Shown piece by piece: positions 25,723-50,082 of a DNA stretch of 64,000 nt; position 1 is the first letter of the stretch, and every line of letters begins with the position of its first letter. The translations under genes and the position numbers were made by a program. The notes beneath the pieces are model-generated. The model worked only from the letters and a program-made list of their open reading frames with translations. It made no database searches and was not told the DNA's origin. This DNA is from Leptotrichia wadei (GTDB lineage Bacteria; Fusobacteriota; Fusobacteriia; Fusobacteriales; Leptotrichiaceae): the NCBI RefSeq assembly GCF_007990445.1, contig NZ_AP019841.1, forward strand, positions 1,364,001 to 1,428,000. The letters run 5' to 3'.

Positions 25723-26749
25723 CTATATCTTTTCCACCGCTTTTCTCAGCTCTTCAATGTCCTTGTGAGTATAAAATTTTTCAGTTGTTGTATAACTGTT
25801 GTGTCCTATTAATTTCTTAACTGATGTTTTATTTGCGTCTGCATTACTTAGTAATGTTGCAAATGTATGTCTAGTATCGTGTGGCTTATGATTCATTCCA
25901 AGTTCTTCCATAATAGGTTTAAATTTTTCTTTGTAATAATTATCATATTTCATTTGTTTGCCTTTGAAGTTTACAATCAAGTATTCGTTTTTGGTATTCA
26001 TCCTATTTTCAACAAGTTTTAGTATTTTAGAATGGATAGGAACTAGTCTATCTTTACCAGCTTCTGTTTTCAGTCCACCTTTAATGATTCTATCTTTCAA
26101 ATCAATATCACTATTTTTAATTTCCAGCAATTCTCCAATTCTAAATCCTGTATAAATAAGAATTAGAATAGTGTCAATCCAGTCATTTTCATCCAGCAAA
26201 TCCCACAATCTTTCAATCTCTTTATTTGTAAAAGGCTTTCTTGTGTTTTCTTCCGTATTTTTTCCGATATCTATATATTTGCTATAATCTTTTGAGATGA
26301 TATCATTTTTCATAGCATAAGCGTATAGCTGATTAAAAGAATCTTAATTTTTTCTTCGAACCATATTTGATTTTAGTGCTGGAAAAAACTTCTTGCAAAT
26401 CAGAAGATTTTAAATTTACAAATCGTAATTGGTGTAAAATTTTAGAGTTCTTAAATGCAGCAATATATCCTAATTGTGATGAACGACCAATTGTATCAAA
26501 TTTTTCTGTTTTCCATTTTTCGTAAACTTCCGAAAATGTGAGACTTTGAACATCTACATTATACGGATGTTCATTATAATAAAATAATTGTTGATTAGCT
26601 TCTTTTTGAGTTTTATAATAACCTATATATTTATATTGTTGTTTACCAGTCTTATCCCAATGAGTTGTAACCCTTACAGCAAAAGGTTTTCTTCTTTTGC
26701 CTCTTAATCTAATTACAGAACCATAACCGTTCGGATTTCTCATTTTCAT
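25723..26749 (-). pseudogene. int: tyrosine integrase, split by a frameshift
   Basis: The N-terminal part (26749 to 26333) has the arm-binding start MKMRNPNGYGSVIRLRGK and core-binding helices. The catalytic part (frame ending at 25723) has Arg in YTGFRIGEL, HDTRHTFATLL, the second His in LIGHNSYTT and Tyr in EKFYTHKD, so all active-site residues are present. The parts are in different frames; the joint near 26340 is an A-rich run, and removing one base restores one protein of about 341 residues. Would catalyse site-specific integration and excision. It lies at the end of the leftward operon. Damage may be real or a sequence error. Confidence 0.85.
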
Positions 26750-30796: not shown

Positions 30797-30994
30797 CTAC
30801 TTTTTAAACCCTGCATCGATACCGTATTCTTTTTGAACGTAGTATCTTAAGTTTTGCTCCATCAATTTTTTTATATTTTCATCAATTTCGCTGTCGTTTT
30901 TAATTTTCTCTATCATTTCATTCATTTTTCCTAATTTGTTACTTGCACCTGCAATTTTTCTTTTCATCGCAGGCAATTTTCTAAAATTTTGCAT
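30797..30994 (-). CDS. small phage protein, unknown function
   Basis: 65 residues, lysine-rich and helical (MQNFRKLPAMKRKIAG). TAAGGAGATAATAAA precedes the ATG. It is first in the segment of the leftward operon that lies after the structured non-coding region. Confidence 0.5.
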   Translation of the reverse strand: MQNFRKLPAMKRKIAGASNKLGKMNEMIEKIKNDSEIDENIKKLMEQNLRYYVQKEYGIDAGFKK

Positions 30995-31030
30995 TTTATT
31001 ATCTCCTTATTTTTTATATTTACAATGTCC

Positions 31031-31259
31031 TAATCAGTAATATTCGATCTGCTTTAAATGCTCTTAGATAAGCTCTTTTGTTGCTCAGAAATGCTTTTTT
31101 TGATACTGATTAAGAATATTGTATTAATTTAATCGTGCCATCTATACAGTTAAAAATTAAATAAATATTAGAAAAGAAGACTCATTATGACATTTCTGCA
31201 TATTCTAGTAGCTATGCCTTGTGCAAAAATATGCAGTGACATAGATGGCGCGATTAAAT
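31031..31259. ncRNA. structured non-coding region in the early operon, unknown role
   Basis: The element has three inverted repeats. TAATCAGTA (31031-31039) pairs with TACTGATTA (31104-31112). A 19-base arm at 31127-31145 pairs with 31241-31259 (one T-G pair if read as plus-strand RNA, otherwise perfect). Inside it, CTGCATAT (31196-31203) pairs with ATATGCAG (31229-31236). No good open frame occupies it. The T-G pair, tolerated only in plus-strand RNA, hints at a plus-strand transcript, antisense in direction to the operon. An origin, an antitermination signal or a small element are alternatives. Confidence 0.45.
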
Positions 31260-31312
31260 CAACATTGTTGATTTTATTTGTGTTTTATAGACTTTAGCAC
31301 CTGTCTTCTGTT

Positions 31313-31627
31313 TTAAAATATGTACCAATCATCGTTTCCAACAAACTCCTCATAGGAGAATACTGGCAAGAATTCTTTATACGCTAACTCTATTCCTGCT
31401 TTATTAAAAATTTTTGTTTCAAATGCAGGTTCTCCATATTTCTGATCCCATCCACGATATTCTGAGATTATTGTCAGCCCTTTTAACTCCTTTATTTCTT
31501 TTGTTCCTATTTCTTCATCGTATGCGAAATTTCCGCAATTTTGTTTTACAAATTTTTCTATTTTTTTAATTCTTTTCTCATTCTGTTTCCTCCTATTTTT
31601 TTTTATTAATATCTTATCCAAACCCAC
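31313..31627 (-). CDS. small phage protein, start disrupted
   Basis: The open frame gives 104 residues from a GTG at 31627 without a ribosome site. AGGAGG with ATG at 31581 is one frame off, and adding one A to the A7 run near 31,565 would connect it to the conserved-looking body (FVKQNCGNFAYDEEIGTKE). The likely real gene is 31313-31581 with a missing base. It is an acidic soluble protein; no family is recognised. Confidence 0.5.
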   Translation of the reverse strand: MGLDKILIKKNRRKQNEKRIKKIEKFVKQNCGNFAYDEEIGTKEIKELKGLTIISEYRGWDQKYGEPAFETKIFNKAGIELAYKEFLPVFSYEEFVGNDDWYIF

Positions 31628-31662
31628 TGCAATATTTACAATGAGCTTGATAAAACATCAAT

Positions 31663-31809
31663 TTATTTCCAGTCTGGATTTAAAATTAGTCGCTTTGGCT
31701 GTTTTTTGTTAAATAGCTTTTTGATTCTGTTTTTAAATTTCTTTGCTTCAATTTCTTCTCTTGCTTTTTGACTGTTTTCGTTTACTATTTTCAATGCTCC
31801 AAATTTCAT
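31663..31809 (-). CDS. 48-residue basic phage protein
   Basis: ATG 31809 with GGAGG upstream. It starts MKFGALKIVNENSQKAREEI and ends basic (KKQPKRLILNPDWK). It overlaps the end of the previous small frame. Unknown function. Confidence 0.5.
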   Translation of the reverse strand: MKFGALKIVNENSQKAREEIEAKKFKNRIKKLFNKKQPKRLILNPDWK

Positions 31810-36229: not shown

Positions 36230-36256
36230 AACAAAAAAAGCACTCCGAAGAGTGCT
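36230..36256 (-). terminator. hairpin with minus-strand T run
   Basis: AGCACTC-CGAA-GAGTGCT (36239-36256); on the minus strand a run of seven T follows, so it would stop leftward transcription coming from the replication region. On the plus strand there is no T run. Confidence 0.6.
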
Positions 36257-36271
36257 AGAAAATAAAAGATA

Positions 36272-36322
36272 CTATATATTGTGTTTATTATAACATAGTA
36301 TGTTTAAAAACACAATATATAG
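36272..36322. repeat. 15-bp perfect inverted repeat before the replication gene
   Basis: CTATATATTGTGTTT (36272-36286) and AAACACAATATATAG (36308-36322) with a 21-base spacer, ending 13 bases before the replication gene start. It is distinct from the repressor operators, so it is a candidate site for a second regulator. Confidence 0.55.
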
Positions 36323-36335
36323 GGAGAGGGAAAAG

Positions 36336-37181
36336 ATGAGATTTTCAACATATTTAAACAATGCGAAATGTATGGAGTGGCAAATAAAAGCTACTCAAGG
36401 AATTTTATTTTCTTTGCTTTACGAGGCACCTGCTTGGGCAAAAGAAGAAATTATTGAGAATAAAACATATTATTTTGTATCAAGAAATTTGATATTAGAT
36501 GAACTGCCAATGTTTTTTGAAAAGTCTGATACTGTTTACAGAAATTTGAAAGCACTACAAGAAAAAGGACTTATTGAATATATTAAACAAGGTAAAAAGG
36601 ATTTAATAAGAATTACTGCAAAAGGTAAAACTTGGAATGAATTTAAAGAAAATAATTCGGAAAAAAATCCGTCTTTTGAAGAAAACTCGGAAAAAAATCC
36701 GAATAATCTCGGAAAAAAATCCGAAAAAGAGTCAAAAAACTCGGAAAAAAATCCGACAAATAATAATACTATATATAATTATAATAATACTAATATATTA
36801 AATAATATATATAGTTCGGTGATAGATTATTTGAACAGAAAAACAGAACGTACAGGAAAAGAAAAATATAGTTCAACATCACCTAAAACACAAAAACTAA
36901 TAAAAGCAAGGCTAAGAGAAAAATATGAGCTGGAAGACTTTAAAACCGTTATAGACAAGAAGTGCAAAGAATGGCTAGGCACAGATATGGAGAAATATTT
37001 GCGTCCAGAAACGCTTTTTGGAAACAAGTTTGAGAGTTATTTAAAACAAAAAACAGGAGGAAATAACAATGGAAACACAAGGAATAAGAGAAGCTATACA
37101 GGAAATGCTGAGAAAAAAGGGTTTGACAAGCACAATGATTATAAGCCAGACTACTCAAAGGGATTCGATGACTGGAATTAG
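36336..37181 (+). CDS. phage replication initiator (winged helix plus conserved phage C-terminal domain)
   Basis: 281 residues from ATG 36336, with GGGAGAGGG upstream; ATG 36300 lies inside the inverted repeat. The N-terminal winged helix is about 20-105. A linker contains repeated SEKNP units encoded by the iterons. The C-terminal domain is recognisable by SSTSPKTQKLIKARLREKY, VIDKKCKEWLGTDMEKYLRP and TLFGNKFESYL. Such proteins bind origin repeats inside their own gene and recruit the helicase via the DnaC-like protein that follows. Confidence 0.82.
   Translation: MRFSTYLNNAKCMEWQIKATQGILFSLLYEAPAWAKEEIIENKTYYFVSRNLILDELPMFFEKSDTVYRNLKALQEKGLIEYIKQGKKDLIRITAKGKTWNEFKENNSEKNPSFEENSEKNPNNLGKKSEKESKNSEKNPTNNNTIYNYNNTNILNNIYSSVIDYLNRKTERTGKEKYSSTSPKTQKLIKARLREKYELEDFKTVIDKKCKEWLGTDMEKYLRPETLFGNKFESYLKQKTGGNNNGNTRNKRSYTGNAEKKGFDKHNDYKPDYSKGFDDWN
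36657..36755. repeat. four replication iterons, likely phage origin
   Basis: TCGGAAAAAAATCCG occurs exactly four times: 36657-36671, 36687-36701, 36709-36723 and 36741-36755. Each copy has CGGA/TCCG arms. Immediately downstream, 36757-36815 is almost pure A and T, a candidate unwinding element. The arrangement resembles lambda ori inside gene O. Confidence 0.75.
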
Positions 37182-37833
37182 TGCTCCAAGTGTATCAGCT
37201 AGTATTTTTAAAGAGAAAGAAATTGAAAAATATATGGGCTTATCAAAATTAATGGAACAGGATTGGCATAAGAGATTTGAAAATGCAGAAGTCAAATCAA
37301 CCAAGGAAATGGAATTTAAAAAGTCATTTGAGAAGTATTGCAAAAACTTTGAAATAATCAAACAAAAAGGGCTTGGGATATTAATGAGCGGTAATCCTGG
37401 AACTGGCAAAACTTATTATACAACTTGCATAATGAATGTTTTGAATCAAAAATATCTTGTTTACAAGACAACTTTATCTGATTTGCTAGAAGAAATCAGA
37501 AAAAGCTATAAAAGTTTTGAAAATGAGAATGATGATTTTTTATTCAGCAGATTATCCAAAGCGGAATTGATAATTTTTGATGACCTGGGAAATGAATTTT
37601 TAAGCGACTGGGGAAAAGAAAAAATGTTTATGATCCTGAATTTCATTTATGAGAACAATAAGCCTCTAATAATAAACACAAATTTAGATGCTAAGCAATT
37701 ATCAAGTTTTTTTAACATAAACGGCAGCGATAAATTATTAGACAGAATCCGCAGTAAATGTAAAACATATATTTTTAGCTGGGAAAGCCGAAGAAAAGAT
37801 TTATACAAAAAAGACTTTGAGGAATTATATTAG
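37168..37833 (+). CDS. DnaC-like helicase loader ATPase
   Basis: 221 residues from ATG 37168 (MTGISAPSVSASIF), preceded by AAAGGG. It overlaps the upstream gene by 14 bases. An alternative ATG at 37069 with GGAGG nine bases upstream would give 254 residues but a 113-base overlap. Walker A is SGNPGTGKTY, Walker B is LIIFDDLG, and an arginine sits in DRIRSKC. It loads the host DnaB helicase at the phage origin. Confidence 0.85.
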   Translation: MTGISAPSVSASIFKEKEIEKYMGLSKLMEQDWHKRFENAEVKSTKEMEFKKSFEKYCKNFEIIKQKGLGILMSGNPGTGKTYYTTCIMNVLNQKYLVYKTTLSDLLEEIRKSYKSFENENDDFLFSRLSKAELIIFDDLGNEFLSDWGKEKMFMILNFIYENNKPLIINTNLDAKQLSSFFNINGSDKLLDRIRSKCKTYIFSWESRRKDLYKKDFEELY

Positions 37834-37841
37834 GAGGAATA

Positions 37842-38135
37842 ATGGATAAAATAAATCAATTGGAAGGTAAAGTAATATGTTTTAAAGGTCTTCCAGAAGA
37901 TTTTTTTGAACAGACAGAAAAACTAAAAAAAATATTTGAAGAAAAAAATATGAAAAAAGAAGAATTGGTTTTTATTTTAGAAACATTGGAATTGCAAGAA
38001 ATAAAAGCAGAAAAAAGTGTTGAACAAAGATCTTTGATTTATAAAGAAATTTTATTTTTAATTTTTTTATCAATAGTGATTGCTATTATTACAACAATCA
38101 CTATATTGTTAGTAAGAAAATTACTTATTCTTTAA
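37842..38135 (+). CDS. small protein with C-terminal membrane anchor
   Basis: 97 residues: soluble acidic helical part then one strong membrane helix (LIFLSIVIAIITTITILLV). AGGAGG upstream. Its end overlaps the convergent minus gene by 15 bases. Function unknown. Confidence 0.55.
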   Translation: MDKINQLEGKVICFKGLPEDFFEQTEKLKKIFEEKNMKKEELVFILETLELQEIKAEKSVEQRSLIYKEILFLIFLSIVIAIITTITILLVRKLLIL

Positions 38136-38486
38136 TATTTTTATTAAATCAAAAATAAAATCTTTAAGTTTGTTATTAAAAATGCTGAAACGAGATTTTT
38201 TTAAAATTTTTTTTGATAAATTTGATAAAAAATAGAATTCTGTTTCGACATAGGAGATTTTACCAAAAGAATTTTTGTGTTTTTTATATAATCTACAAAT
38301 ATATGGGACACCAAAAATTGAAATATCATTAATTTGAATACTATCAAATTTTTCGAGATTTTCCAATCGAAAAGATGTATCAAATTTATATTCTGGAAAT
38401 TTCTTGAAAATTTTATGTCGTGGAACAACTTCATATTTATTAATAAATTTTAAAATCTTTATATCAATATTGTCTATGAAAAACAC
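38121..38486 (-). CDS. minus-strand gene of unknown function, possibly a winged-helix protein
   Basis: 121 residues, GTG start with AAAGGGG upstream (MFFIDNIDIKILKFINKYEV). The first 60 residues look like a winged helix (ILKFINKYEVVPRHKIFKKF). Opposite direction to the replication operon, so it is perhaps expressed in the lysogen. No named family. Confidence 0.5.
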   Translation of the reverse strand: MFFIDNIDIKILKFINKYEVVPRHKIFKKFPEYKFDTSFRLENLEKFDSIQINDISIFGVPYICRLYKKHKNSFGKISYVETEFYFLSNLSKKILKKSRFSIFNNKLKDFIFDLIKILKNK

Positions 38487-38599
38487 CCCTTTCTGTATAA
38501 AATTATTGTCGCTAATATTATATCACAAAGGGAGAATATATAGAATGGTGGAGAAAATGATGAAAGTCAAGATGAAATAAAATAAGGAGGAAATAAAAA

Positions 38600-38851
38600 A
38601 TGCTAAAAGAAAATGTAAAAGCAAAAGTAATAGTGATAGATTTTAATGACCGCAAAGGGTGGAAATTGTATCACAACGAGGACTTATATGGAAACACAGA
38701 GATTGCAGATGACAGATTCTGGAACGATGTGCAGGAGGGGTATTACAAGTTCAGCAAGGGGACAACTTTAATTGCTGATATTAAATGCCCCTGGAAAATT
38801 GAAGAGCCTTTAAAAATTCTGAAGGTACATGAGGTGATTTATGGTGATTAG
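38600..38851 (+). CDS. phage protein of unknown function
   Basis: 83 residues with AGGAGG upstream (MLKENVKAKVIVIDFNDRKG). Aromatic-rich and beta-looking. It overlaps the resolvase gene by 11 bases, so it belongs to the replication/recombination transcript. Confidence 0.55.
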   Translation: MLKENVKAKVIVIDFNDRKGWKLYHNEDLYGNTEIADDRFWNDVQEGYYKFSKGTTLIADIKCPWKIEEPLKILKVHEVIYGD

Positions 38852-39233
38852 GTTGGAATTACCAGTTTACTGGAACGTAAATAAAAAACAGCAGACACTT
38901 ATCGGTATGAACTGGTATCAAAGAGCAAACGGATTTCAAATTAATGAAGTCAAGAAAGCGTATCACGAATTAATCAGATTGAAGCTACTCAGCAACAAAG
39001 AAAAAATAAAAGGAAGCTATCAAGTAAGGTATAAATATTTTTATAAAAATGATAATTCTGATTTAAAAAACGTAACATCTGTTATTGATAAATTTTTTAA
39101 CGATGCCTTGCAGGAACTTGGGATTGTTAAAAATGACAATGTAAAATATTTTAAAGAATCAATTGACCGAGTTGGTGGAATGGATAAGAAAAATCCGAGA
39201 GTTGAAATAGAAGTGGAGGAAATAAAAAAATGA
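38841..39233 (+). CDS. RusA-like Holliday-junction resolvase
   Basis: 130 residues. The C-terminal half has the RusA-like pattern of an Asp-Leu-x-Asn motif then Lys/Asp spacing: SDLKNVTSVIDKFFNDALQE, then GIVKNDNVKYF and DKKNPRVEIEV. The start MVIRLELPVYWNVNKK also fits phage RusA relatives. It would resolve recombination intermediates made by YqaJ/RecT. Its stop overlaps the next start (ATGA). Confidence 0.65.
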   Translation: MVIRLELPVYWNVNKKQQTLIGMNWYQRANGFQINEVKKAYHELIRLKLLSNKEKIKGSYQVRYKYFYKNDNSDLKNVTSVIDKFFNDALQELGIVKNDNVKYFKESIDRVGGMDKKNPRVEIEVEEIKK

Positions 39234-39709
39234 TAAATGCAGAAATATTAGATTTAAAAAAAATGGATATAAGATATTTGGAGAAAATGAAAAAACTTGT
39301 CAAGGAGTTCTATGTGGCTTTTGGACAAGAGAAATATCTGAACAAGGAAGTATATAGAGCAACAAGCATTGAGCGGATGAAATTAAGAAATAGATTGTTT
39401 GATGAAGAACTAAAGGAATTTTTAGAAGCTGAGACAGATGTAGAGAAATTAGATGCTATTTGTGATATGTATTATATAGCGATAGGCACAACACTTGAAC
39501 TAGGGGCATACGGCAACCAGTTTTTTGTAATTGATTATTACAAACAAAGAACTTGGTTTAACGATGAACTAATTTTGGAAGCATTCGAGGAAGTCCACAG
39601 AAGCAATATGTCAAAACTTGAAAATGGAGAAGCTGTTTTCAGGGAAGATGGAAAGATAATAAAAGGTAAAAATTATTTTAGACCTAATTTGAAACAATTT
39701 ATTGAATAA
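39230..39709 (+). CDS. MazG/HisE-like nucleotide pyrophosphohydrolase
   Basis: 159 residues. The metal-binding EExxE...ExxD pattern of all-alpha NTP pyrophosphatases is visible in FDEELKEFLEAETD and LDAICDMYYIAIG. The ending (NMSKLENGEAVFREDGKIIKG) is typical of phage members. It is likely to clean non-canonical nucleotides or ease stringent signalling during phage growth; the substrate is not known. Confidence 0.7.
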   Translation: MINAEILDLKKMDIRYLEKMKKLVKEFYVAFGQEKYLNKEVYRATSIERMKLRNRLFDEELKEFLEAETDVEKLDAICDMYYIAIGTTLELGAYGNQFFVIDYYKQRTWFNDELILEAFEEVHRSNMSKLENGEAVFREDGKIIKGKNYFRPNLKQFIE

Positions 39710-39727
39710 AAAATAGGAGGAATATTA

Positions 39728-40341
39728 ATGAACGAATTAATAAACATAGAAGCTAAAAATACATTGACAAGTTTAGAAGTGGCGGAAATAACAGGAAAAG
39801 ATCACAAAAGTATTTTAAGAGATATCAGGGATGAAATAGATAAATTGGGAGAAGAAAGAGGTCGGCTCATTTTGTGCCGACTGAATATACGGATAATTTT
39901 AACAGAAAACAGCCTGCCTTTTTATTAAATTACAAAGGTGTCTTGCAGCTTGGAGCAAGATATAATGCTGAAACAAGGTTTAAGCTTATCGAAAAAATCG
40001 AACAGCTTCAAAAACCAATGACAGTAGAAGATATGATCATATTGCAGGCAAATGAAATGAAGAGCGTTAAGCATAGAATTGACATCGTGGAAAACAAAGT
40101 TGATAACGAGATAAGAATAGATCATACAGAACAAAGAAAGTTACAAAAAGCAGTATCTATAAGAGTATTTCAAAGACTTGACGTAGTAGATGCAGAAAGA
40201 AAATTAATGTTTTCAGCAATATACAGAGATTTGAAAGACAGATTTGGAGTTGCGAGTTACCGTGATGTGAAGAGAAAAGATTTGAAAAATGCCTTACTGT
40301 ATGTTCAGAACTGGATAGAAAAAGCAGAATTGAGGAATTGA
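39728..40341 (+). pseudogene. Rha/ORF6C-type antirepressor, broken by one frameshift
   Basis: The N-terminal frame (39728-39928, AGGAGG upstream) is a Rha-type DNA-binding domain (SLEVAEITGKDHKSILRDIR). The frame opening at 39874 continues with VPTEYTDNFNRKQPAFLLN and an ORF6C-like C-terminus (RVFQRLDVVDAERKLMFSAI, NALLYVQNWIEKAEL). Adding one T to the T4 run near 39,875 restores a single protein of about 204 residues. Antirepressors of this type control phage induction; function is lost if the shift is real. Confidence 0.75.
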
Positions 40342-40342
40342 G

Positions 40343-40531
40343 ATGGATGAAAAAGAGAAAACATTTAAAAGAATAAAAGAAAAGATATTATGCAATACAG
40401 AAATGAACAACCGTGATATTGAATTTGCAAAACTTAATGCCAATTTATTTAAGGGTATTAAATTTATTAAAAAAAGGAAGGCTAAAAATAAATGGCTTAC
40501 ACAGAAATCGACAGAGAAAATAAGAAAATAA
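40343..40531 (+). CDS. small basic phage protein
   Basis: 62 codons (MDEKEKTFKRIKEKILCN), starting two bases after the antirepressor. Overlaps the HNH gene by 40 bases; the last codons may be out of frame. Unknown function. Confidence 0.4.
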   Translation: MDEKEKTFKRIKEKILCNTEMNNRDIEFAKLNANLFKGIKFIKKRKAKNKWLTQKSTEKIRK

Positions 40532-41268
40532 GGCTTTTTTATCCAACTAACAAGCCAGCAAAGAGGATAAAAGAGTGGCAGGAAGAACTGAAAGGATATG
40601 ATATAGAGATAATACCACAGAACACTATAACAGATGACCAGATGAAACTTTGCTATGTCCTATTTGACCAGTTCGCAAATTCAAAAGGCTGGGGTTTGGA
40701 TTATACAAAAAACTATTTCAAAGCCCTGTTCGGAACAGTATACGAAATAAGTAACTTCAGCCTGTCACCGATGAAAAAGAATGCCTTGACTTTGGAACAG
40801 GCGACAAACTTTATACAGTTTATAATTGAGTTTGCAATAGAGCAAGATGTAAATTTGTATATATTAGATTCAAAGGATAAAAGAGCAAGGCACATAAGGG
40901 AAATAGTGCCAGATATACAGAGATACGTTATAAGTTGTTTGAGAAAAAGAATATGCTGTGTATGCGGAAGACCTCATAATGAATACAATACAGTCGACTT
41001 GGAGCATTACGATAATGTAAATGAAATTGGTGGCTATGAGTTCGATACAGGATTAGAAACAAGATTTTTGAGCTTATGTAGACATCACCATACGGAGATA
41101 CATAACATTCCTAAGCAGGAATTTTTGGAGAAATACCATCTAGAGCCTGTTTACTTGAACGAAAGATTGGTTTATGAGCTTTTAGAAGTTTATCCCAATC
41201 ACTTTAAGTTATTTAGAAAGAGGCTTAAAGATGGGTATTATAGAGGGATTATTAAGGAGGAAAAATAA
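40492..41268 (+). CDS. putative phage HNH nuclease
   Basis: 258 residues. The C-terminal part has a zinc-bound HNH arrangement: CCVCGRPHNEYNTVDLEHYD, then LSLCRHHHTEIHNI. The N-terminal half (KRIKEWQEELKGYDIEIIPQ) is the part shared by replication-region putative HNH proteins of Firmicute-type phages. AGGAAGG precedes the start. Its stop overlaps the next gene. It may serve in recombination or DNA processing. Confidence 0.75.
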   Translation: MAYTEIDRENKKIRLFYPTNKPAKRIKEWQEELKGYDIEIIPQNTITDDQMKLCYVLFDQFANSKGWGLDYTKNYFKALFGTVYEISNFSLSPMKKNALTLEQATNFIQFIIEFAIEQDVNLYILDSKDKRARHIREIVPDIQRYVISCLRKRICCVCGRPHNEYNTVDLEHYDNVNEIGGYEFDTGLETRFLSLCRHHHTEIHNIPKQEFLEKYHLEPVYLNERLVYELLEVYPNHFKLFRKRLKDGYYRGIIKEEK

Positions 41269-41486
41269 TGGAAATATTATATAAAATAACAGGAGTGATC
41301 TTTTCAGTTTCTATTATGGCATTTTCGATATTGTTTATGACAGCTTGCTTTAATAGTGCTATTTATGAATACAAGGAGGCAAAAAACAAAACAAGTTACT
41401 TGCTTTCACTATATATTACACTTTTAATTTCAGGTACTTTAATATTTTTAGCAGCAGTAGGAATAAAAGTAATAGTGTTAGCGTAG
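41268..41486 (+). CDS. small membrane protein
   Basis: 72 residues with two membrane helices (IFSVSIMAFSILFMTACF and YITLLISGTLIFLAAVGI). The start overlaps the nuclease stop, so it is coupled. Function unknown. Confidence 0.5.
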   Translation: MEILYKITGVIFSVSIMAFSILFMTACFNSAIYEYKEAKNKTSYLLSLYITLLISGTLIFLAAVGIKVIVLA

Positions 41487-41531
41487 TTCAGTAGAAAAAG
41501 GTTAGGAAGAAAAATAAAAAAAGGAGAAAGT

Positions 41532-41642
41532 ATGAAAAATAAGGATAGAATGCAGTTTAATTTAAAAAACTGGGAAAAACGTGGTTTCTTTGGAAATCTT
41601 TGGAGTAAAATGATAAAAGAGCAACTTTTGAGAAGATATTAA
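41532..41642 (+). CDS. 36-residue basic phage peptide
   Basis: ATG with AAAAGGAGAAAGT upstream. It starts MKNKDRMQFNLKNWEKRG. The strong ribosome site supports translation. Unknown function. Confidence 0.45.
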   Translation: MKNKDRMQFNLKNWEKRGFFGNLWSKMIKEQLLRRY

Positions 41643-41677
41643 ATAAAGACAAGTATAAAAAGAAATGAGGAAATAAA

Positions 41678-42058
41678 ATGAAACTTATTGAATTATATGG
41701 AATAAAGATAAAAGAATTAACTGAAATATTGAAAGATGAAAGAGTAAGAAAATTTGAAATAAAAGAACACACAAATTACATAGATTATTTCATTATATCG
41801 TTTGAGTTAAATTATGAAAAGAAAATACAGTTTGATATACGTTTAAGTGATATGAAAGATTATCAAAGTTGGGATTTATCAATAGAAGAAATAAGTTCTC
41901 AATTTGATAAAAAATTTACAAAATTAAAAGAATACTTAGAAAGCAAAAATAAAGGTGAGCTTAAAGAACTAGAGAATAAAATATCTGAGTATGAAGCAGA
42001 ACTTAAAAAGGCAAAAGAGCAATATGATAAAATAAACGATTATGGTGAGAACTTATAA
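41678..42058 (+). CDS. phage protein with C-terminal coiled coil
   Basis: 126 residues: an alpha/beta first part (MKLIELYGIKIKELTEIL) and a helix rich in Lys/Glu (about 85-120). GAGG before the ATG. Function unknown. Confidence 0.5.
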   Translation: MKLIELYGIKIKELTEILKDERVRKFEIKEHTNYIDYFIISFELNYEKKIQFDIRLSDMKDYQSWDLSIEEISSQFDKKFTKLKEYLESKNKGELKELENKISEYEAELKKAKEQYDKINDYGENL

Positions 42059-42073
42059 AGTTAGGAGGAATAA

Positions 42074-42388
42074 ATGGCAGAAAAAACAATATTAGACGGA
42101 ATAATTTTGAAAATAGACAACGGTTATCCGTTGTTGCAAGTTGAATACAAAACACTTCTTGAAAAACTTCCTATCATAAAAAAGGAAGAAAGTGTTGGAG
42201 ATTGGCATAGTGGAACAATAAATTATAGAAATGTTAAAAAAGAATACTATGTGGTAGGAAATTCAGAAAAAGGTTATTTTTGGTTTTATCACGCTAAAAG
42301 TGAATGGGTTGTAGATGGATATTTTGATATTAAAAGAGTTCAAAGAAAATCTGAACAAGTCACAGAAACAAGAGTTTGGTATGAATAA
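42074..42388 (+). CDS. phage protein of unknown function
   Basis: 104 residues, AGGAGG upstream, starting MAEKTILDGIILKIDNGYP. Aromatic-rich, soluble. It overlaps no neighbour and is followed 19 bases later by the lipoprotein gene. Confidence 0.5.
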   Translation: MAEKTILDGIILKIDNGYPLLQVEYKTLLEKLPIIKKEESVGDWHSGTINYRNVKKEYYVVGNSEKGYFWFYHAKSEWVVDGYFDIKRVQRKSEQVTETRVWYE

Positions 42389-42407
42389 AAAAAGAAAGGA
42401 AATTAAA

Positions 42408-42680
42408 ATGAAGAAATTATTATTAGGAATTGTAATTTTAGGATCGTTAGGAAGTTGTGCAAGATGGGAAGACAGTCGAAAAGATTGGAAAAGCGATACA
42501 AGTGGATTAAAAAGAATTGTAAGGGTTTATACTCTTGATGGGAAAGTCTTAAAAGAATATAAAGGAATGATAAGGGTAAGAGATTCAAATAAGAGTGGAA
42601 GAATATCGTTAAATTTAATAAACGAAAACAATCGTAGAGTTACAATTGACAATGCAATCGTGATAACAGAGGAGGAATAA
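42408..42680 (+). CDS. phage lipoprotein (DUF5052-like)
   Basis: 90 residues from ATG 42408 (AAAGGAA upstream). Signal MKKLLLGIVILGSLGSC with lipobox Cys17. The mature part has WKSDTSGLKRIVRVYTLDGK, then LKEYKGMIRVRDS and ends IVITEEE. The layout resembles DUF5052 lipoproteins found in phage early regions. Some phage lipoproteins block entry of superinfecting phage DNA; that role is inference here. Confidence 0.6.
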   Translation: MKKLLLGIVILGSLGSCARWEDSRKDWKSDTSGLKRIVRVYTLDGKVLKEYKGMIRVRDSNKSGRISLNLINENNRRVTIDNAIVITEEE

Positions 42681-42902
42681 ATGGAAATAATAATGAGAAT
42701 GATAAGTGGACTAATTACATTAACGGCTGTATTAGCGCTGGTAAGATACATCTATGGATTAGTTATTGTATATAAAAACAAGGCAAAGAGATTCAGATTC
42801 AATATAAGCAATGTAATAATATTTTTAGTTGCTACAATAATAAATTTATTCGTGATTTATGGATTGATTTGGATTATAAGTTTTTTTTCGATTAGAGTAT
42901 AA
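42681..42902 (+). CDS. small membrane protein
   Basis: 73 residues with two membrane helices (MISGLITLTAVLALVRYIYG; VIIFLVATIINLFVIYGLIW). It begins at the base after the lipoprotein stop, with GGAGG overlapping that gene's end, so they are coupled and may act together at the envelope. Confidence 0.5.
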   Translation: MEIIMRMISGLITLTAVLALVRYIYGLVIVYKNKAKRFRFNISNVIIFLVATIINLFVIYGLIWIISFFSIRV

Positions 42903-42949
42903 AGAGGTATAATTAATTATAATAAAAAGGTATTTAAGGAGGATAAAGA

Positions 42950-43192
42950 ATGAATAATTTAATAGCAGATGAAGTGTTTATTTTAAGAAAAAATTTGAAC
43001 CGAGTTAATAGTGAAATAGAAGAAATAGAAAGAGATTTTGAAATAAAATATCCAAACTCGGTGGTAATAATTAATTCTGAATTAAATGATTTATATAAAA
43101 AAAGAAATCGTTTAAGTACAACTTTAGCAGAAATTGAAAGAATATTCGGTCCTGGTCAAATTAAGATAGTAGTTTGGAAACATAGCGATTAA
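42950..43192 (+). CDS. small helical phage protein
   Basis: 80 residues, AAGGAGG upstream. Charged coiled-coil-like sequence (NRVNSEIEEIERDFEIKY). Function unknown. Confidence 0.5.
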   Translation: MNNLIADEVFILRKNLNRVNSEIEEIERDFEIKYPNSVVIINSELNDLYKKRNRLSTTLAEIERIFGPGQIKIVVWKHSD

Positions 43193-43231
43193 AGTGTAGA
43201 ACGAAGAAAATGGAAATTTATAGAGAAAAGG

Positions 43232-43552
43232 ATGTTGAAAATGCAAGAGTTTATTTTTAAAAAAATGAATGAATGGGAATTTTTAAAATTAAAAAATAAA
43301 AGAGAAAGTTTAAAATTTGAATTAAGAGAAATAAATCAAAAGATACAAAGAGAAGAGGAAATAAGGGAAAGAATAGAAGTAAAGGAGCAGTTAAGAGATG
43401 TTGAAATAAAGAAAGTATCAAATATTTTAAAAGTTTTAAACGCAAGAGGAGAATACGAAAATATTTTTTTAGATTGTAAACATGAGGATTACGAAATAGA
43501 ACTAAAAAGAGTGTTGAAACAATATTTAGATTTTTTAGAATATTACTTATAA
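43232..43552 (+). CDS. helical phage protein
   Basis: 106 residues, rich in Glu, Lys and Arg, likely coiled coil (REINQKIQREEEIRERIEVK). Weak ribosome site (GAAAAGGATG). ATG 43241 is an alternative start. Function unknown. Confidence 0.45.
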   Translation: MLKMQEFIFKKMNEWEFLKLKNKRESLKFELREINQKIQREEEIRERIEVKEQLRDVEIKKVSNILKVLNARGEYENIFLDCKHEDYEIELKRVLKQYLDFLEYYL

Positions 43553-43596
43553 ATACTTGAAAATATTGATAAAATAAGGTATAATAAGGAGGTAAA

Positions 43597-43764
43597 ATGG
43601 ATAAAAAATATGAAACCTTAATTGAAGATGATGTTGAAGTTAAATATTTACTTGACGATATTTTGGCTTTAAAAAAAACAAAGAAAGAATGTGAAATACG
43701 AATTGTTTTCAACAAAGGTAAACTTAATAAAAAAAGATATATAGTGAGAAGTTTATATCGTTAA
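43597..43764 (+). CDS. 55-residue phage protein
   Basis: AAGGAGGTAAA precedes the ATG. It starts MDKKYETLIEDDVEVKYLLD and ends basic. Last gene before the terminator at 43.8 kb. Function unknown. Confidence 0.5.
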   Translation: MDKKYETLIEDDVEVKYLLDDILALKKTKKECEIRIVFNKGKLNKKRYIVRSLYR

Positions 43765-43797
43765 ATTACAATTGAATAGGCAAGACTATAGATATAT

Positions 43798-43855
43798 GAG
43801 CCATTAGATAGATAGATTTTAAAATGAGTCTATTTATTTAATGGCTCTTTTTTTG
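43798..43855 (+). terminator. terminator between early/middle and late genes
   Basis: GAGCCATTA (43798-43806) pairs with TAATGGCTC (43839-43847), enclosing AT-rich sequence. It is followed directly by a seven-T run. It separates the small-gene cluster from the packaging operon. Confidence 0.8.
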
Positions 43856-43881
43856 TCTAAAAATCAAAGAAAGGGGGCAAG

Positions 43882-44415
43882 ATGAAGATTGAGAAAATAA
43901 ATATCAATGAAATAATTGAGTATTCAGGAAATGCTAAAGAACATCCTGAATGGCAAATTGAACAGATTAAAAACAGTATTCAAAAATTCGGATTCAATGA
44001 TCCGATTGCGATTGATGAAAAAAATATTATTATCGAAGGACACGGAAGATATTTGGCATTAAAAGAACTTGGATATACAGAAGTTGAAGTAATCAGATTA
44101 AATCATTTAACAGAGGAGCAGAAAACAGCTTATGCTATTGCTCACAATAAATTAACTATGAATACAGAGTTCGATATTGAAAAATTGCAGTACGAGTTGA
44201 ATAAGCTGGAGGTAAATGATTTTGATTTAAGTGTGCTTGGTTTTGAACAGTCTGAACTTGATGAGATTTTGCAAGAGGAAATGGAAGAGCTAGAAATTGA
44301 AGATGAAGATACAGATAACACAGAAGTCAAACGTACTAAATTAATTTGTCCCTGCTGTAATCATATTGCTGAAAAGAGCGAATTTAAGGAGGTAATGGAT
44401 GGCGAAGATACATAA
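43882..44415 (+). CDS. ParB-like nuclease-domain protein
   Basis: 177 residues. N-terminal ParB/Srx fold: INEIIEYSGNAKEHPEWQ, then FNDPIAIDEKNIIIEGHGRY, where the GHGR loop is the phosphate-binding motif. The C-terminal part is acidic, then a possible zinc knuckle (LICPCCNH). Phage genes of this type often precede a methyltransferase and terminase. It overlaps the methyltransferase by 17 bases. Confidence 0.78.
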   Translation: MKIEKININEIIEYSGNAKEHPEWQIEQIKNSIQKFGFNDPIAIDEKNIIIEGHGRYLALKELGYTEVEVIRLNHLTEEQKTAYAIAHNKLTMNTEFDIEKLQYELNKLEVNDFDLSVLGFEQSELDEILQEEMEELEIEDEDTDNTEVKRTKLICPCCNHIAEKSEFKEVMDGEDT

Positions 44416-45199
44416 TGACAAATATTATACTCCTGATCCAGTTGTAAGAAAAGTGATTGAAGTTCTTGAAAAAGATGTGATGCCAATCAATAAGTTTTCA
44501 AGAATTATTGAGCCAAGTGCAGGTGCCGGAGCGTTTCTTAAAAGACTTCCTAAAATTGCGGTTGGATACGATATAGAGCCACAAGGTGAAAATATCATAA
44601 AAGGCGATTATCTTAAACAGAATGTTCCATATATGAAAAACAGCCTTGTAATTGGAAATCCGCCTTTTGGAAGTAGTGGAAATTTGCATACAGAGTTTAT
44701 AAAGAAAAGTATGGAACATTCTGACTATGTGGCATTTGTGCTTCCAGGTGATATGTATAAGAAAGATAAATTTGAAAATATTGAATTATATAAGTCGTAT
44801 ATGTTGCCAGCGGTCAAATACAGCGGAGTTAAGTTAAAATGCTGTTTCAATATTTATCGCAAGAGAAAAGGCAAATTAAAAGAAAAGAATATCAAAGATG
44901 CTGAAATTTTAACATTTTCTAAAACTAAGAGTACTACAAAACAGCAGGAATTGTATTGGTTAAATATAAAGTCTGATTTCAGATTCATAGCATTTGGAAC
45001 AATAAGATTGCTAAAAAGCACAGATAAAAGAGTACGAGCGAAAGAAATAAAAATAATCTTGAAGAAAAAGGTTAATTTAAAACCAGTTTTGGAAAAGTAT
45101 TTGAAGAATAGGGCTAAAGTTGCAGTATCAACTCCGAATGTAAGCAAAAAAGAAATCGTTGAGTTAATATATGATAATTTTCCACAATTGAGGGAATAA
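44399..45199 (+). CDS. phage DNA N6-adenine methyltransferase
   Basis: 266 residues. SAM-binding motif in IIEPSAGAGAFLKRL and catalytic motif IV NPPFGSSGN, the signature of N6-adenine methyltransferases. No restriction enzyme is beside it, so it is an orphan enzyme that may protect phage DNA or mark it for packaging. Overlaps the ParB-like gene; GGAGG is upstream. Confidence 0.78.
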   Translation: MAKIHNDKYYTPDPVVRKVIEVLEKDVMPINKFSRIIEPSAGAGAFLKRLPKIAVGYDIEPQGENIIKGDYLKQNVPYMKNSLVIGNPPFGSSGNLHTEFIKKSMEHSDYVAFVLPGDMYKKDKFENIELYKSYMLPAVKYSGVKLKCCFNIYRKRKGKLKEKNIKDAEILTFSKTKSTTKQQELYWLNIKSDFRFIAFGTIRLLKSTDKRVRAKEIKIILKKKVNLKPVLEKYLKNRAKVAVSTPNVSKKEIVELIYDNFPQLRE

Positions 45200-45201
45200 A
45201 C

Positions 45202-45924
45202 ATGACTAAAAAATTATTACTGAACGAATGGGAAGAACTTGGAGGAGAAAATGCTGCAAAAGGAACTTTAAAGAAACTGGCTGACAAATATGGTGTCCCC
45301 GGGGGGACTGTGAGGCGCTGGAAGAGTGAATATTTAAAGAAGAATAAGGCGGCGAATGTTCGGAATAAAAAGCGAACGAACAGCGAACGTTCAAACGAAC
45401 GTGACATTCAAGTAAAAAAAGATATTTTAAATGGTATTCCAAAAGAGGAAGTTATGAGAAAAAATGAGATTTCAAACGCAACTTATTACAGAAAAGAAAA
45501 AAATATAAGACAACTTAGGTTAGAAAAAACAGAAGAGCAGTTGGATGATATTCTTTTAAAAGTTTATTCTGATTTAGGGGATGTACTAAAGAATGTGGAA
45601 ATTTCAAAACGTAACTTAGTAATAAGGATGGCTAAGGAAATCTCAAAAGATGAAACGCTAGATGCCAAAAGACTCCAAATAATTGACAAGGCTTACGTAA
45701 CTATTAAAAAAATGGGAAACGATTTAATGAGGACTGGTAAAATGTTGACTGCGTATGAATTATTAGAAGTCGACAAGCAACTTGCAGAAGAAGCGTTGCA
45801 ACAAGAGAAATTAGAAATTGAAAAATCTAAAATTAAAAAAGATGACGAAAAGGAAATTGAAAAAGAAAATGAAATGATTGAATTGTTAAAAAATATAACA
45901 AAGAAGGTTGAAAAAAATGAATGA
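45202..45924 (+). CDS. terminase small subunit
   Basis: 240 residues. An N-terminal helix-turn-helix (GTLKKLADKYGVPGGTVRRW, about 20-40) is followed by a second DNA-binding repeat (ILNGIPKEEVMRKNEISNAT) and a long helical, charged C-terminus. This architecture and the adjacent large subunit define it. It recognises the phage packaging site. The stop overlaps the large-subunit start. Confidence 0.82.
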   Translation: MTKKLLLNEWEELGGENAAKGTLKKLADKYGVPGGTVRRWKSEYLKKNKAANVRNKKRTNSERSNERDIQVKKDILNGIPKEEVMRKNEISNATYYRKEKNIRQLRLEKTEEQLDDILLKVYSDLGDVLKNVEISKRNLVIRMAKEISKDETLDAKRLQIIDKAYVTIKKMGNDLMRTGKMLTAYELLEVDKQLAEEALQQEKLEIEKSKIKKDDEKEIEKENEMIELLKNITKKVEKNE

Positions 45925-47119
45925 TTTAACACCAAAACAGTATGAAGTGTTAGAAGTATTTAATAAAGAACAGCCAAGAATCACAATTTTGACAGGAGCA
46001 AAAAGAAGTGGAAAAACATTTTTAAATAATTTTCTTATGTTATCACACATAGCAACATTGGCTAATCAAAATCTTAATTTTATTGTAATTGGAGCAACAA
46101 GTGGAAGTATTTGGCGGAATGTTCTAAACGATTGGGAAGTTATGTTAGGAAAGCAATTTAAGCCAAAAAAAGATGGAAGTTTTAAGCTATTCGGAAACAA
46201 TGTTTATTTATTTGGCGGAGAAAAGGCGGATAGCTGGAAGAAAATGAGAGGGATGACTTCTCACGGCACTTATATAAATGAGGCAACAGCATTACATCAA
46301 ACTTTTATAACTGAAGCATTTTCAAGAACATCTGGGGAAGGAGCTAAGATATTTATTGATACAAATCCAGATAATCCAGCTCACTTTGTTAAAAAAGATT
46401 ATATCGACAATGCTGGAGATAGATTGGAAAACGGCAGATTGAATATTCTAGTTAGTAATTTTAAGCTAGACGATAATGTTTTTCTTAATAAGGAATATGT
46501 GGATTCTATTAAAAAGACAACTCCACGAGGAGCAACTTATGACAGAGATATTTTAGGATTATGGGTAGCTCAAGAAGGAGTTGTATTTGCAGATTTTTCA
46601 GAAAAAGAAAATGTAATTGAAAGTATAGATAATGTTGAGATAAAGGAATATTACATTGGAGTCGACTGGGGATTCGAACATTACGGAACTTTGATAGTTA
46701 TCGGAGTGGATTTTGAGGAAAGTTATTATATTGTCGAAGTAATAGCAAAACAACATAAATATTTTGATTATTGGAAAATGCTAATTTTACAGAAATATAA
46801 AGAATATAGGGCCTCAAGAGTATTTTGTGATAGTGCTAGAGCTGAGTATGTACAAGGACTTTTAGATTTTGGGATAAACGCAGAAAACGCTAAAAAAGAT
46901 GTAAAAGAAGGTATTGATTTGGTTGGGGCTATGTATAAAAGGAATAAGCTAAAAATTACAAAGAAAGCATTCAAAGGAAAGTTTGAGAGTGAGATATACT
47001 CGTATGTTTGGGGTAAAAATGATGAACCGCTTAAAGAAAATGACGATGTAATGGATGCGATAAGATATGTTTTGTATAGCTTGAAAAAAGATGAAGGTGG
47101 AATTGCTTATTTATATTAG
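45917..47119 (+). CDS. terminase large subunit
   Basis: 400 residues from ATG 45917. Walker A is GAKRSGKT (residues 27-34), and GTYINEATALH fits the Walker B region. The RNase H-like nuclease domain has Asp in YIGVDWGFEHYG and FCDSARAEYV, with the last acidic site in NDDVMDAIRYVLYS. It is the packaging motor and headful or site-specific nuclease; full length and intact. Confidence 0.94.
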   Translation: MNDLTPKQYEVLEVFNKEQPRITILTGAKRSGKTFLNNFLMLSHIATLANQNLNFIVIGATSGSIWRNVLNDWEVMLGKQFKPKKDGSFKLFGNNVYLFGGEKADSWKKMRGMTSHGTYINEATALHQTFITEAFSRTSGEGAKIFIDTNPDNPAHFVKKDYIDNAGDRLENGRLNILVSNFKLDDNVFLNKEYVDSIKKTTPRGATYDRDILGLWVAQEGVVFADFSEKENVIESIDNVEIKEYYIGVDWGFEHYGTLIVIGVDFEESYYIVEVIAKQHKYFDYWKMLILQKYKEYRASRVFCDSARAEYVQGLLDFGINAENAKKDVKEGIDLVGAMYKRNKLKITKKAFKGKFESEIYSYVWGKNDEPLKENDDVMDAIRYVLYSLKKDEGGIAYLY

Positions 47120-47131
47120 AAAGGAGGGCTA

Positions 47132-48364
47132 ATGAATAAAGAAGAGAGAACAAGAGTAAAAACTTATTACGACAGAGAACAATATAGCAAATCTAATTTG
47201 AGTAAGAATATGCCGGGATTGTTTGAAGGAACGGTTGAAATTTTTAATCCGATTAGAGATATTGTTAAGGCCCTTTCGAACACAGCTTTAAAAGATTTGA
47301 ACATAGACAATGATAAATTGAAAAAAATTTGGGAAATTAATCAAATGACAACATTTAGTAAAAAGATAGCTAAAGAGATGTACTTAAATGAAGAAGTATT
47401 CGTCGAGGTTATATTAACACCTGATGAGCAGATTAGGTATCTTTTGCATAGTGTAGATGACATCGAATATGTGGAAGTGTTTGGGGAGATAAAAAGGTTT
47501 AAGGTCGAAGGCGAGCAAGTCTATTATGATGAAAATGGAGAAGAGCAGAGTAGAGAGTATTCAAGAGAGTATATAAAACTCGATAATGGAACTGTTAAAA
47601 GAGTTGAAAAAATAGAAGGGGATGTTATTGAAACGCCTTTTATTTTAGAAAAAATACCTGTTTCAAGATTTAAGAATGACAGTAATATTATTGAAGCCTT
47701 GAACATTATAGATAAAATCAATGAAACAGAATGTTATATTGGAAAAATCTTTGGGATACATGGTGATCCGTTACTGCATGCAGATAACATTAAGCAATTT
47801 GCAGATGTAAATACAAGTAATTCTAAAATTAAGAAAAATGCGCAGCTTTTAGAAGAAGCAAGATATAAGAGAAAGAGAATCATAAACACTTATAACACGA
47901 AAGACTTACAAGCTAATTTTAAATATATCGAGTTGACAAATCCACTTATTAGTGAAATGCAAAACGATATAGCGAGGTTAGAAAAGAGATTATCTAATTT
48001 GTTTCCGGAGTATCTTTTGGTAGATACAGCGACACAAAATGTCAGCGAAGAAACTTATTTGTTAAAAAATAACGGGCTTAAGACTAAAGTCGCAAGCTTC
48101 AGAGAAGATTTTATAAAAAGTTTGCTGGAATTAGACAAAATAGCGTTGGAATTATCAGGAAGTTCTGAGGAATTAACTGAAACAAGTTACACATATTTTG
48201 ATACTTTTTTGGAAAATGAAAAGAGCGCTAAATTAACAACTTTATCATTAGCTCTTGATATAATAAACAAAGCAAAAGATATTGATGAGGAGTATAAACT
48301 TAAAAATTTAATAAATAAAATAACGGACGATACTTTACAAGATTTGAGTGGTTTGTATGATTAA
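47132..48364 (+). CDS. phage portal protein
   Basis: 410 residues, directly after the terminase, AAAGGAGGG upstream. It resembles SPP1-type portals in its mixed N-terminal part (PGLFEGTVEIFNPIRDIVKA), a central region and the long C-terminal helix containing EMQNDIARLEKRLSNLFPEY. It forms the dodecameric ring at the head vertex. Assigned by place, size and pattern. Confidence 0.78.
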   Translation: MNKEERTRVKTYYDREQYSKSNLSKNMPGLFEGTVEIFNPIRDIVKALSNTALKDLNIDNDKLKKIWEINQMTTFSKKIAKEMYLNEEVFVEVILTPDEQIRYLLHSVDDIEYVEVFGEIKRFKVEGEQVYYDENGEEQSREYSREYIKLDNGTVKRVEKIEGDVIETPFILEKIPVSRFKNDSNIIEALNIIDKINETECYIGKIFGIHGDPLLHADNIKQFADVNTSNSKIKKNAQLLEEARYKRKRIINTYNTKDLQANFKYIELTNPLISEMQNDIARLEKRLSNLFPEYLLVDTATQNVSEETYLLKNNGLKTKVASFREDFIKSLLELDKIALELSGSSEELTETSYTYFDTFLENEKSAKLTTLSLALDIINKAKDIDEEYKLKNLINKITDDTLQDLSGLYD

Positions 48365-48932
48365 GATAAATTTTGAATGGAATCATAGAGTCGAAAAAAG
48401 ATTATTTATTTTTTTAAAAAAGATAGCTTTTTCGATTTTTAATGATAAAAAAATAAATGTTAATTACTCAAATTTGCTGAAGACATTTATTAATTATAGT
48501 GTGAATTTTGAAAAAGAGTATAAAAGCAAAAAGAATATTGATGTTGAAAAGCATTTAGAATTAGCAAAAAAACAAATAAAAGAAATTAAAGAATGGCAGA
48601 ATAATTTAAACAATTATGTTGAAAATAATAAACAAAAATCAAATTTAAAGGATATATTAAAAAATAATGCAAAATTCAGAGCAAGAAACATGCTTGGAAA
48701 TTACTATAAAGATTTTTTAAAAGAAATAATTGCTGGAGAAAGTGAATATTTCGAATGGAATACAATGGGAGATGAAAGAGTTAGACCCACGCACGAAGCA
48801 AGAGATGGAAAAATTTATAACTGGGATAATGCCGAAATAGTCCCTGGAGAAGAGCCGGGTTGCAGATGTTGGGCTACTGTTTATTTTCCTAATTCGCAGG
48901 AAGAAATTAATGACATAAATCAAAATTCTTGA
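48357..48932 (+). CDS. minor head protein (Mu gpF / SPP1 gp7-like)
   Basis: 191 residues from ATG 48357, overlapping the portal end. The C-terminal motif TMGDERVRPTHEARDGKIY, then GEEPGCRCWATVYF, is the hallmark of phage head-morphogenesis proteins. The N-terminal part is shorter than in Mu gpF. Confidence 0.82.
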   Translation: MIKINFEWNHRVEKRLFIFLKKIAFSIFNDKKINVNYSNLLKTFINYSVNFEKEYKSKKNIDVEKHLELAKKQIKEIKEWQNNLNNYVENNKQKSNLKDILKNNAKFRARNMLGNYYKDFLKEIIAGESEYFEWNTMGDERVRPTHEARDGKIYNWDNAEIVPGEEPGCRCWATVYFPNSQEEINDINQNS

Positions 48933-48946
48933 GAGTTGAAGTATTA

Positions 48947-49024
48947 TAAATCATTTATGAGTTATTTGATGTCGAATCTCAAAAATTTTATAGAGTATCA
49001 ATATTCTAAATCATTTATGAGTTA
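48947..49024. repeat. two 18-bp direct repeats between minor head and scaffold genes
   Basis: TAAATCATTTATGAGTTA occurs at 48947-48964 and 49007-49024, exactly 60 bases apart, with looser similarity around them. This suggests an old tandem duplication in the 118-base gap. Confidence 0.6.
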
Positions 49025-49050
49025 GAACAAATAATCTAAAGGAGTGAAAA

Positions 49051-49671
49051 ATGTTTTTAGGACAAGATTTATTAGAAAGAATGAAATTAAATTATGACAC
49101 TACAACGGAAACAACAGGTGGTGCAGGAGCAAGTAATACTGGTGAAAATAATGGGACACAATCAAATAGTGAAGCTAATGAAACAATAGAAAACTTAAAG
49201 GCCCAAATTGAAAAGATAACAAATGATACTAATAAAGAAATCAATTCTTTGAAATCACAATTAGGTCATGCAAATAAGCAAATTGAAGATTATCAAAAAA
49301 ATGGGAAAAGCGCTGAGGAATTAGCAAAAATGGAAAAAGAAAAATTAGAACAAGAACTCGCTGAAGCTAAAAAACAGTTGAATTTAACAGCGTTGTTAAC
49401 TAAAAAAAGTGAGTTAGTTGCGCAATTAAAAATTAGTCCGCAGTTTGCTGATTTAGTACAAATTACACCAGATATGACACTTGAGAGATTAGAAACAGCT
49501 GTTAAAGATGTAGCAGCGAAAGAAAAAGAGTTTACAACAGAATTTTTGAAAAAAAACTCTATAACAAACGGAGGTTTTAATTCGAAAGATAAGAAAAGAG
49601 ATGAAAAAGATTTTGTTGATAGAATGATTGAAAAAAACAAAAATAACGAAACAGATCTTACAAAATTTTAG
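49051..49671 (+). CDS. capsid scaffolding protein (DUF4355-like)
   Basis: 206 residues: Thr/Gly/Asn-rich start, long coiled coil (about 45-125, NEINSLKSQLGHANKQIEDY), and a helical end. This composition and its place just before decoration and capsid genes match phage scaffolds. AAAGGAG upstream. Confidence 0.8.
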   Translation: MFLGQDLLERMKLNYDTTTETTGGAGASNTGENNGTQSNSEANETIENLKAQIEKITNDTNKEINSLKSQLGHANKQIEDYQKNGKSAEELAKMEKEKLEQELAEAKKQLNLTALLTKKSELVAQLKISPQFADLVQITPDMTLERLETAVKDVAAKEKEFTTEFLKKNSITNGGFNSKDKKRDEKDFVDRMIEKNKNNETDLTKF

Positions 49672-49680
49672 GAGGTTGGG

Positions 49681-50073
49681 ATGTTAAAAAGAACAGTTAT
49701 GCACAAGGAAAAGTTAAATGTGCAAATTAAAATATTAAAATCTGATTTTGCTAACTATATTTACAAAGATAAAAATACAAACAAAGAATATTTGTTAGCT
49801 GGAGCTTTGATTAAAGCAAAAAATGGCGAAGATTTAAGAGAAACAGGGGCCTTTGTAATACCGAGTGGAACTGGTACTAGAGCCGATGGTGTGTTAGTTC
49901 ATGATGTTGAATTTAAATACTACAACGACAATGAACAAGCGACAGTTGCAATCGAAGGTGTGGCTTATTTGGATAAATTAATCGAGGTAGGGAAAGAATA
50001 CACTGCACCAGTCACAATAACAAAAGCGGAATTACCAGAAGGTGTGACTTATATTTATAAGGATAGAAAATAG
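49681..50073 (+). CDS. head decoration protein, probable
   Basis: 130 residues, beta-rich, with GAFVIPSGTGTRADGVLVHD typical of small proteins encoded between scaffold and major capsid. AGGAGG upstream. Role by position and pattern. Confidence 0.6.
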   Translation: MLKRTVMHKEKLNVQIKILKSDFANYIYKDKNTNKEYLLAGALIKAKNGEDLRETGAFVIPSGTGTRADGVLVHDVEFKYYNDNEQATVAIEGVAYLDKLIEVGKEYTAPVTITKAELPEGVTYIYKDRK

Positions 50074-50082
50074 GAGGTTGAA

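Follow-up and report, generated by a model that had tools for sequence, protein, structure and literature searches.

In phage early mRNAs, RNase III sites are found in T7 and in the lambda N leader, and RNase III accepts stems of more than 20 bp. Small RNAs can act on translation through a different kind of motif, as in Listeria, where the LhrC RNAs use CU-rich motifs in single-stranded regions to pair with ribosome sites. In phage HK022, the put RNAs, about 70 nt in length, lie close to the early promoter (PMC9378689). For icaR of Staphylococcus aureus, pairing of the 3'-UTR with the 5'-UTR and the involvement of RNase III are outlined in the published account (PMC3868564). Other motifs are described in the main text of a survey whose species included Leptotrichia buccalis (PMC11109978).

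In this study we describe an element that sits in a defined slot of a prophage left operon, where cargo genes are exchanged, and that consists of a long branched hairpin, H1, and a shorter hairpin, H2, directly ahead of the ribosome site of the next gene. Comparison of homologous sequences gives good support to the existence of a genuine, apparently uncatalogued structured RNA. What is new is apparently a phage-encoded structured RNA family of narrow distribution that has comparative support in Fusobacteriota.

A structured gap in the prophage left operon

The window analysed is the whole 64-kb stretch G000:C1:1364001-1428000, part of a 2.4-Mb genome in four contigs. The left (early) operon of a prophage occupies 25.7-32.6 kb of it on the minus strand, with genes for an integrase, RecT and a YqaJ-type exonuclease as well as small genes, and it is adjoined by a plus-strand HTH regulator at 32729. 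The integrase is apparently split at 25723-26749 (minus) into two ORFs of 138 aa and 196 aa; that of the homologous prophage L044 is intact at 349 aa. Two other contigs of the genome, C2 (31 kb) and C3 (30 kb), are mostly copies of the window prophage at ~98-99% identity with several small indels, so that the genome holds three near-identical copies of the element. The C2 copy lacks ~14.7 kb (window 36242-50947) and the C3 copy a similar stretch; these contigs may represent additional prophages, plasmid forms or products of the assembly.

Within the operon, a gap of 318 bases separates 30994, the start of a 65-aa ORF, from 31313, the end of a 104-aa ORF, both on the minus strand. The gap holds no ORF of useful size, and a search of both of its strands yielded no intrinsic-terminator-like site. 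Its features and flanking genes are as follows.

30797-30994, minus strand: downstream ORF of 65 aa, swapped for other genes in homologues; its ribosome site, ~31003-31008, follows H2
31026-31115, minus strand: H2, the second hairpin, with closing stem 31104-31112 paired to 31031-31039 (model R2; 54/54 cells paired in six sequences)
31067-31086, minus strand: most conserved stretch of H2, GAGYAACAAAAGAGCTTATC
31114-31266, minus strand: H1, the long branched hairpin, comprising a 133-base unit and stem ends (model R1, alignments A4 and A6)
31241-31264, minus strand: 5' arm (minus-strand reading) of P1, the closing stem of H1; 24 pairs, six with double changes, 95.3% of cells paired
31122-31145, minus strand: 3' arm of P1, with the same pairing count
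31228-31236, minus strand: 5' arm of P2, the inner hairpin of H1; 8 pairs counted, 100% paired, three with double changes
31196-31204, minus strand: 3' arm of P2, pairing with the 5' arm
31168-31181, minus strand: pyrimidine-rich linker GTCTTCTTTTCTAA; homologues have CUCCUUUCU here, like the 16S rRNA tail, and the likeness is weak in the window
31313-31627, minus strand: upstream cargo ORF of 104 aa; no family and, on searching, no relatives found

The preliminary description of this DNA had reported a 19-bp inverted repeat at 31127-31145 with 31241-31259, which is indeed present, with 18 of its 19 positions Watson-Crick (the exception is T31136-G31250), and can be extended to 22 nt at 91%. 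For its class (arms 19 nt or longer, no more than one mismatch, spacer up to 200) this repeat is unique in the window, and 12 dinucleotide shuffles contained no such place. A separate 9-bp pair, 31031-31039 with 31104-31112, was likewise recovered, and the inner hairpin lies at 31196-31204 with 31228-31236, its length being 9 bp and not the 8 bp first given. The gap as a whole, folded as 313 nt, gave z of -3.2 on the minus strand and -2.3 on the plus strand. On the operon strand, H1 reached z of -4.7 to -8.7 in all ten homologues, none of 150 shuffles being as good, and its plus strand likewise folds well. The folding energy of H2 alone is weaker (z -1.7 to -2.3), and its support comes from comparison.

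A CACA motif is kept in the apical part of the H1 inner hairpin, which is followed by the pyrimidine tract, and P1 usually retains one A-C position. The plus-strand sequence of the H2 core at 31067-31086, GATAAGCTCTTTTGTTGCTC, begins with a resemblance to bacterial boxA (GCTCTTT), possibly by coincidence.

Comparative evidence and the probable RNA strand

Homologues of H1 were collected from ten distinct prophages, one of them distant, and of H2 from six, always at one and the same position within the left early operon. A DNA search of the genus gave copies in G007, G004 and G008; a pattern search of IMG/VR added L044, L056 and L045, a near copy of G004; and the covariance models R1 (for H1) and R2 (for H2) added G006, G009, G003 and the distant G010. 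Across 98 Fusobacteriia genomes, confident H1 matches are limited to one genus, where they occur in 8 of 13 genomes; one borderline match fell in G043 (28 bits), and L087 gave a match of 25 bits. No match was found in the phage records of INPHARED or in plasmid records, and further IMG/VR contigs caught by arm and H3 patterns carried no H1. Pattern matches in G024 (a ttcA-like gene), L054, L055, L057, L058 and L102-L104 were rejected as chance, most of them apparently lying inside genes, and weak opposite-strand R1 matches at true elements as mirrors of the same hairpin.

In a MAFFT alignment of nine H1 sequences, 9 of the 32 pairs of the operon-strand structure show double changes and 96.5% of cells are paired; the covariation score was reached by none of 500 shuffles, and sliding the pairing partner by 1-3 columns reduced pairing to below 40%. 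H2 is paired in 100% of its cells, with a covariation score reached by 5 of 500 shuffles. Neither strand has a conserved reading frame, and the coding explanation was dropped, since the short frames differ among homologues. The preliminary description would have given up the structured element had its homologues lacked compensatory changes or encoded a protein; compensatory changes are seen, and no frame is conserved. Its view that the structure fits no annotated feature is borne out too: the window contains no Rfam 15 match above the gathering threshold, the best sub-threshold ones being implausible, and a literature search of main texts found no match to the motif.

A single T-G pair had led the preliminary description to favour a plus-strand RNA. 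One wobble pair on its own says little about strand, and this one is outweighed by the wobbles of the homologues, which point to the minus strand, the sense strand of the operon. Nine pair columns of H1 have G-U wobbles possible on the minus strand only versus three on the plus strand only, and in P1 alone the columns number six versus three, counts that may lean toward the minus strand because R1 and R2 were derived on it, although the main stems are those that had already been named. H2 is fully paired when read on the minus strand, whereas a plus-strand reading turns its wobbles into C-A. What chiefly speaks for the plus strand is one P1 position: read on the minus strand it is C-A in 8 of 9 homologues, and read on the other it would be U-G; the window's own P1 C-A lies two positions away. 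Judged from these alignments, it is fairly well supported that the minus (operon) strand carries the RNA.

Modularity, genetic context and the pyrimidine tract

H1 is always located in the interval from fam2, a conserved tiny basic ORF, to fam1, a membrane ORF of 60 aa. Exchanged cargo genes usually flank it on both sides, and some of these are antisense. The gene downstream of the element varies (a 65-aa ORF, a 93-aa ORF, a DNA methylase, Rha, a 121-aa ORF or a membrane ORF), and the homologues thus share no constant downstream gene of the kind that a riboswitch or gene-specific leader would have. Antisense cargo genes beside H1 include L040:8596-9066, L056:4033-4488 and a 134-aa gene in G003, one of them with DUF2513, and some are near promoter-like or terminator-like sequence. 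Another cargo ORF, L039:8444-8755 (minus), matches PADLOC Unk_01 (E 2.3e-21), a small protein that in some cases is fused to CARF.

The two hairpins are separable modules. H1 occurs without H2 in G003, G009 and L056, and an H2-like hairpin occurs without H1 in L093, L094 and L154, at the weak similarity of 21.7, 17.7 and 21.7 bits, respectively. In these three loci (L093:3147-3300, L094:3212-3360 and L154:3862-3948) the H2-like hairpin follows H3, described below, and has a different closing stem, AGATTTTTACAGC/GCTGTTAAAAATCT; its homology is uncertain. Neither module is present in L090, L091, L092 or L098, the last being the second prophage of the window's own genome. With ~10 operons carrying H1 and 11 lacking it, about half of the related operons do without, and H1 is therefore dispensable.

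Most of these left operons also encode fam2, a basic ORF of 35-48 aa resembling MKFEALTIVNENNKKVLKEREAKKLKNRIKKLFKK (window 31663-31809, minus), which gave no PHROGs match and no significant Pfam match. After this tiny ORF, most related left operons have a further conserved hairpin, H3, AATTGATGTTTTAYCAAGCYCAY..RTGRGTTTGGATAAGATATTAATT (window 31605-31664, minus), whose consensus fold is -22.3 kcal/mol on the operon strand versus -4.7 on the other. H3 is a candidate second RNA element, perhaps better sited for antitermination.

The host 16S genes read GGATGGATCACCTCCTTTCTAAGG near their 3' end. A tract of 8-12 nt like the 16S tail, a motif noticed post hoc, is present in 8 of 10 homologues: the match at the tract is 8-9 nt in G007, G004, L056, G009 and G003 and 12 nt, exact, in G010, and G008 and G006 have 8 nt at another place. 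In the window and L044 it is only 7 nt. Predicted pairing of the tract to a Shine-Dalgarno site clearly exceeds that of shuffles only in G003, G009 and G010. If the likeness were functional, it would give the phage a direct route to influence ribosome choice; that H1 serves as an anti-Shine-Dalgarno decoy by exposing a replica of the 16S rRNA 3' tail, shifting the mRNA choice of ribosomes after induction of the early operon, strikes us as decidedly improbable.

A proposed processing and tuning role, and its rivals

In broad terms, the element probably influences the cutting or the translation of the messenger RNA. Our best specific explanation, offered tentatively and short of probable, is a two-module RNA within the minus-strand left-operon mRNA that combines an RNase III cut with tuning of the neighbours' translation by the tract. 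H1 and H2 would be transcribed inside the polycistronic early mRNA; upon expression of the operon, RNase III would cut the long H1 stem and so separate the mRNA of the exchanged cargo genes from that of the downstream genes; and the pyrimidine tract would pair in cis with Shine-Dalgarno sites, tuning the translation of the adjoining genes. Cutting and tract pairing are both steps that we infer. With its 24 pairs, P1 would, assuming a transcript, have the ~20 bp or more of an RNase III site, and the host has a gene for this enzyme. A sense-strand module cut by this enzyme is favoured because H1 carries the CACA motif and the pyrimidine tract and the host has RNase III, and the fixed slot with its changing neighbours is more readily expected of a general role in processing or insulation than of a switch serving one gene. 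The weak tract in the window and L044, the predicted Shine-Dalgarno pairing that stands out from shuffles in three homologues only, the P1 C-A position and the absence of H1 from about half of the operons count against it. The preliminary description had listed a processing structure or antitermination element among its suggestions, and this is possible.

The foremost rival, itself unlikely, is a trans-acting small RNA processed from the operon mRNA, whose CUCCUUUCU tract and CACA loop would pair with ribosome sites of the host or phage. It would account for a function not bound to one neighbouring gene and for unpaired motifs kept beside variable stems, but neither a dedicated promoter nor a dedicated terminator was found, its place in the operon is fixed, and the tract is poorly kept in the window.

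We regard as improbable a factor-independent antitermination RNA like HK022 put, in which the nascent RNA would bind polymerase and allow read-through of the cargo genes. Such a role agrees with the presence of two hairpin modules in a left operon of a phage whose cargo is in part antisense, with terminator-like hairpins; however, H1 and H2 together span ~230 nt, and over 1 kb separates them from the presumed promoter, which places them after the cargo and not before it. The upstream H3 would suit the role better.

The plus-strand antisense RNA to the operon that the preliminary description had proposed becomes less likely on the strand evidence, and we now hold it highly improbable: the P1 C-A would become U-G and the plus strand folds well, but the wobble columns mostly favour the minus strand and H2 breaks on the plus. 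Its further suggestion of a small non-autonomous element, mobile and bounded by terminal inverted repeats, has barely a chance. Terminal repeats are present, H1 and H2 are separable, and sites without the element do exist, differing much in their flanking genes; yet the 98 genomes contain no dispersed copies, each prophage has one copy, always in the same operon slot, and the stems covary as in RNA. Least credible of all is a plus-strand type I toxin mRNA with terminal pairing around the ribosome site of a short frame, since the short plus-strand frames (one of 36 aa in the window, and one of 22 aa in G003 that has a good ribosome site) and their peptides are not common to the homologues and the strand evidence points to minus.

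Set against known systems, H1 would share with the LhrC RNAs a CU-rich motif for pairing to ribosome sites, but it differs from them in that they are multicopy chromosomal RNAs with promoters and terminators of their own. It resembles the RNase III sites of T7 and the lambda N leader as a long hairpin between genes of an early polycistronic mRNA, but it keeps additional branched structure and unpaired motifs, and its cleavage is putative. Like the put RNAs, H1 and H2 form a structured RNA of two stem-loops in a phage early operon; put, however, is ~70 nt and lies just downstream of the early promoters, whereas H1 and H2 measure ~230 nt and lie more than 1 kb in, so that on size and position membership in the put family is not supported, although working in a similar way is possible. 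The manA-II and fhsA motifs are likewise structured RNAs of Leptotrichia or with members there, but they stand beside metabolic genes, and the main text of that survey contains no phage motif (PMC11109978). The icaR system, as outlined in its published account, concerns a chromosomal gene lacking a branched conserved hairpin and is experimentally proven, whereas for H1 pairing and cutting would be predicted steps; what the two would have in common is the pairing of a Shine-Dalgarno site to a distant pyrimidine motif, together with a part played by RNase III (PMC3868564).
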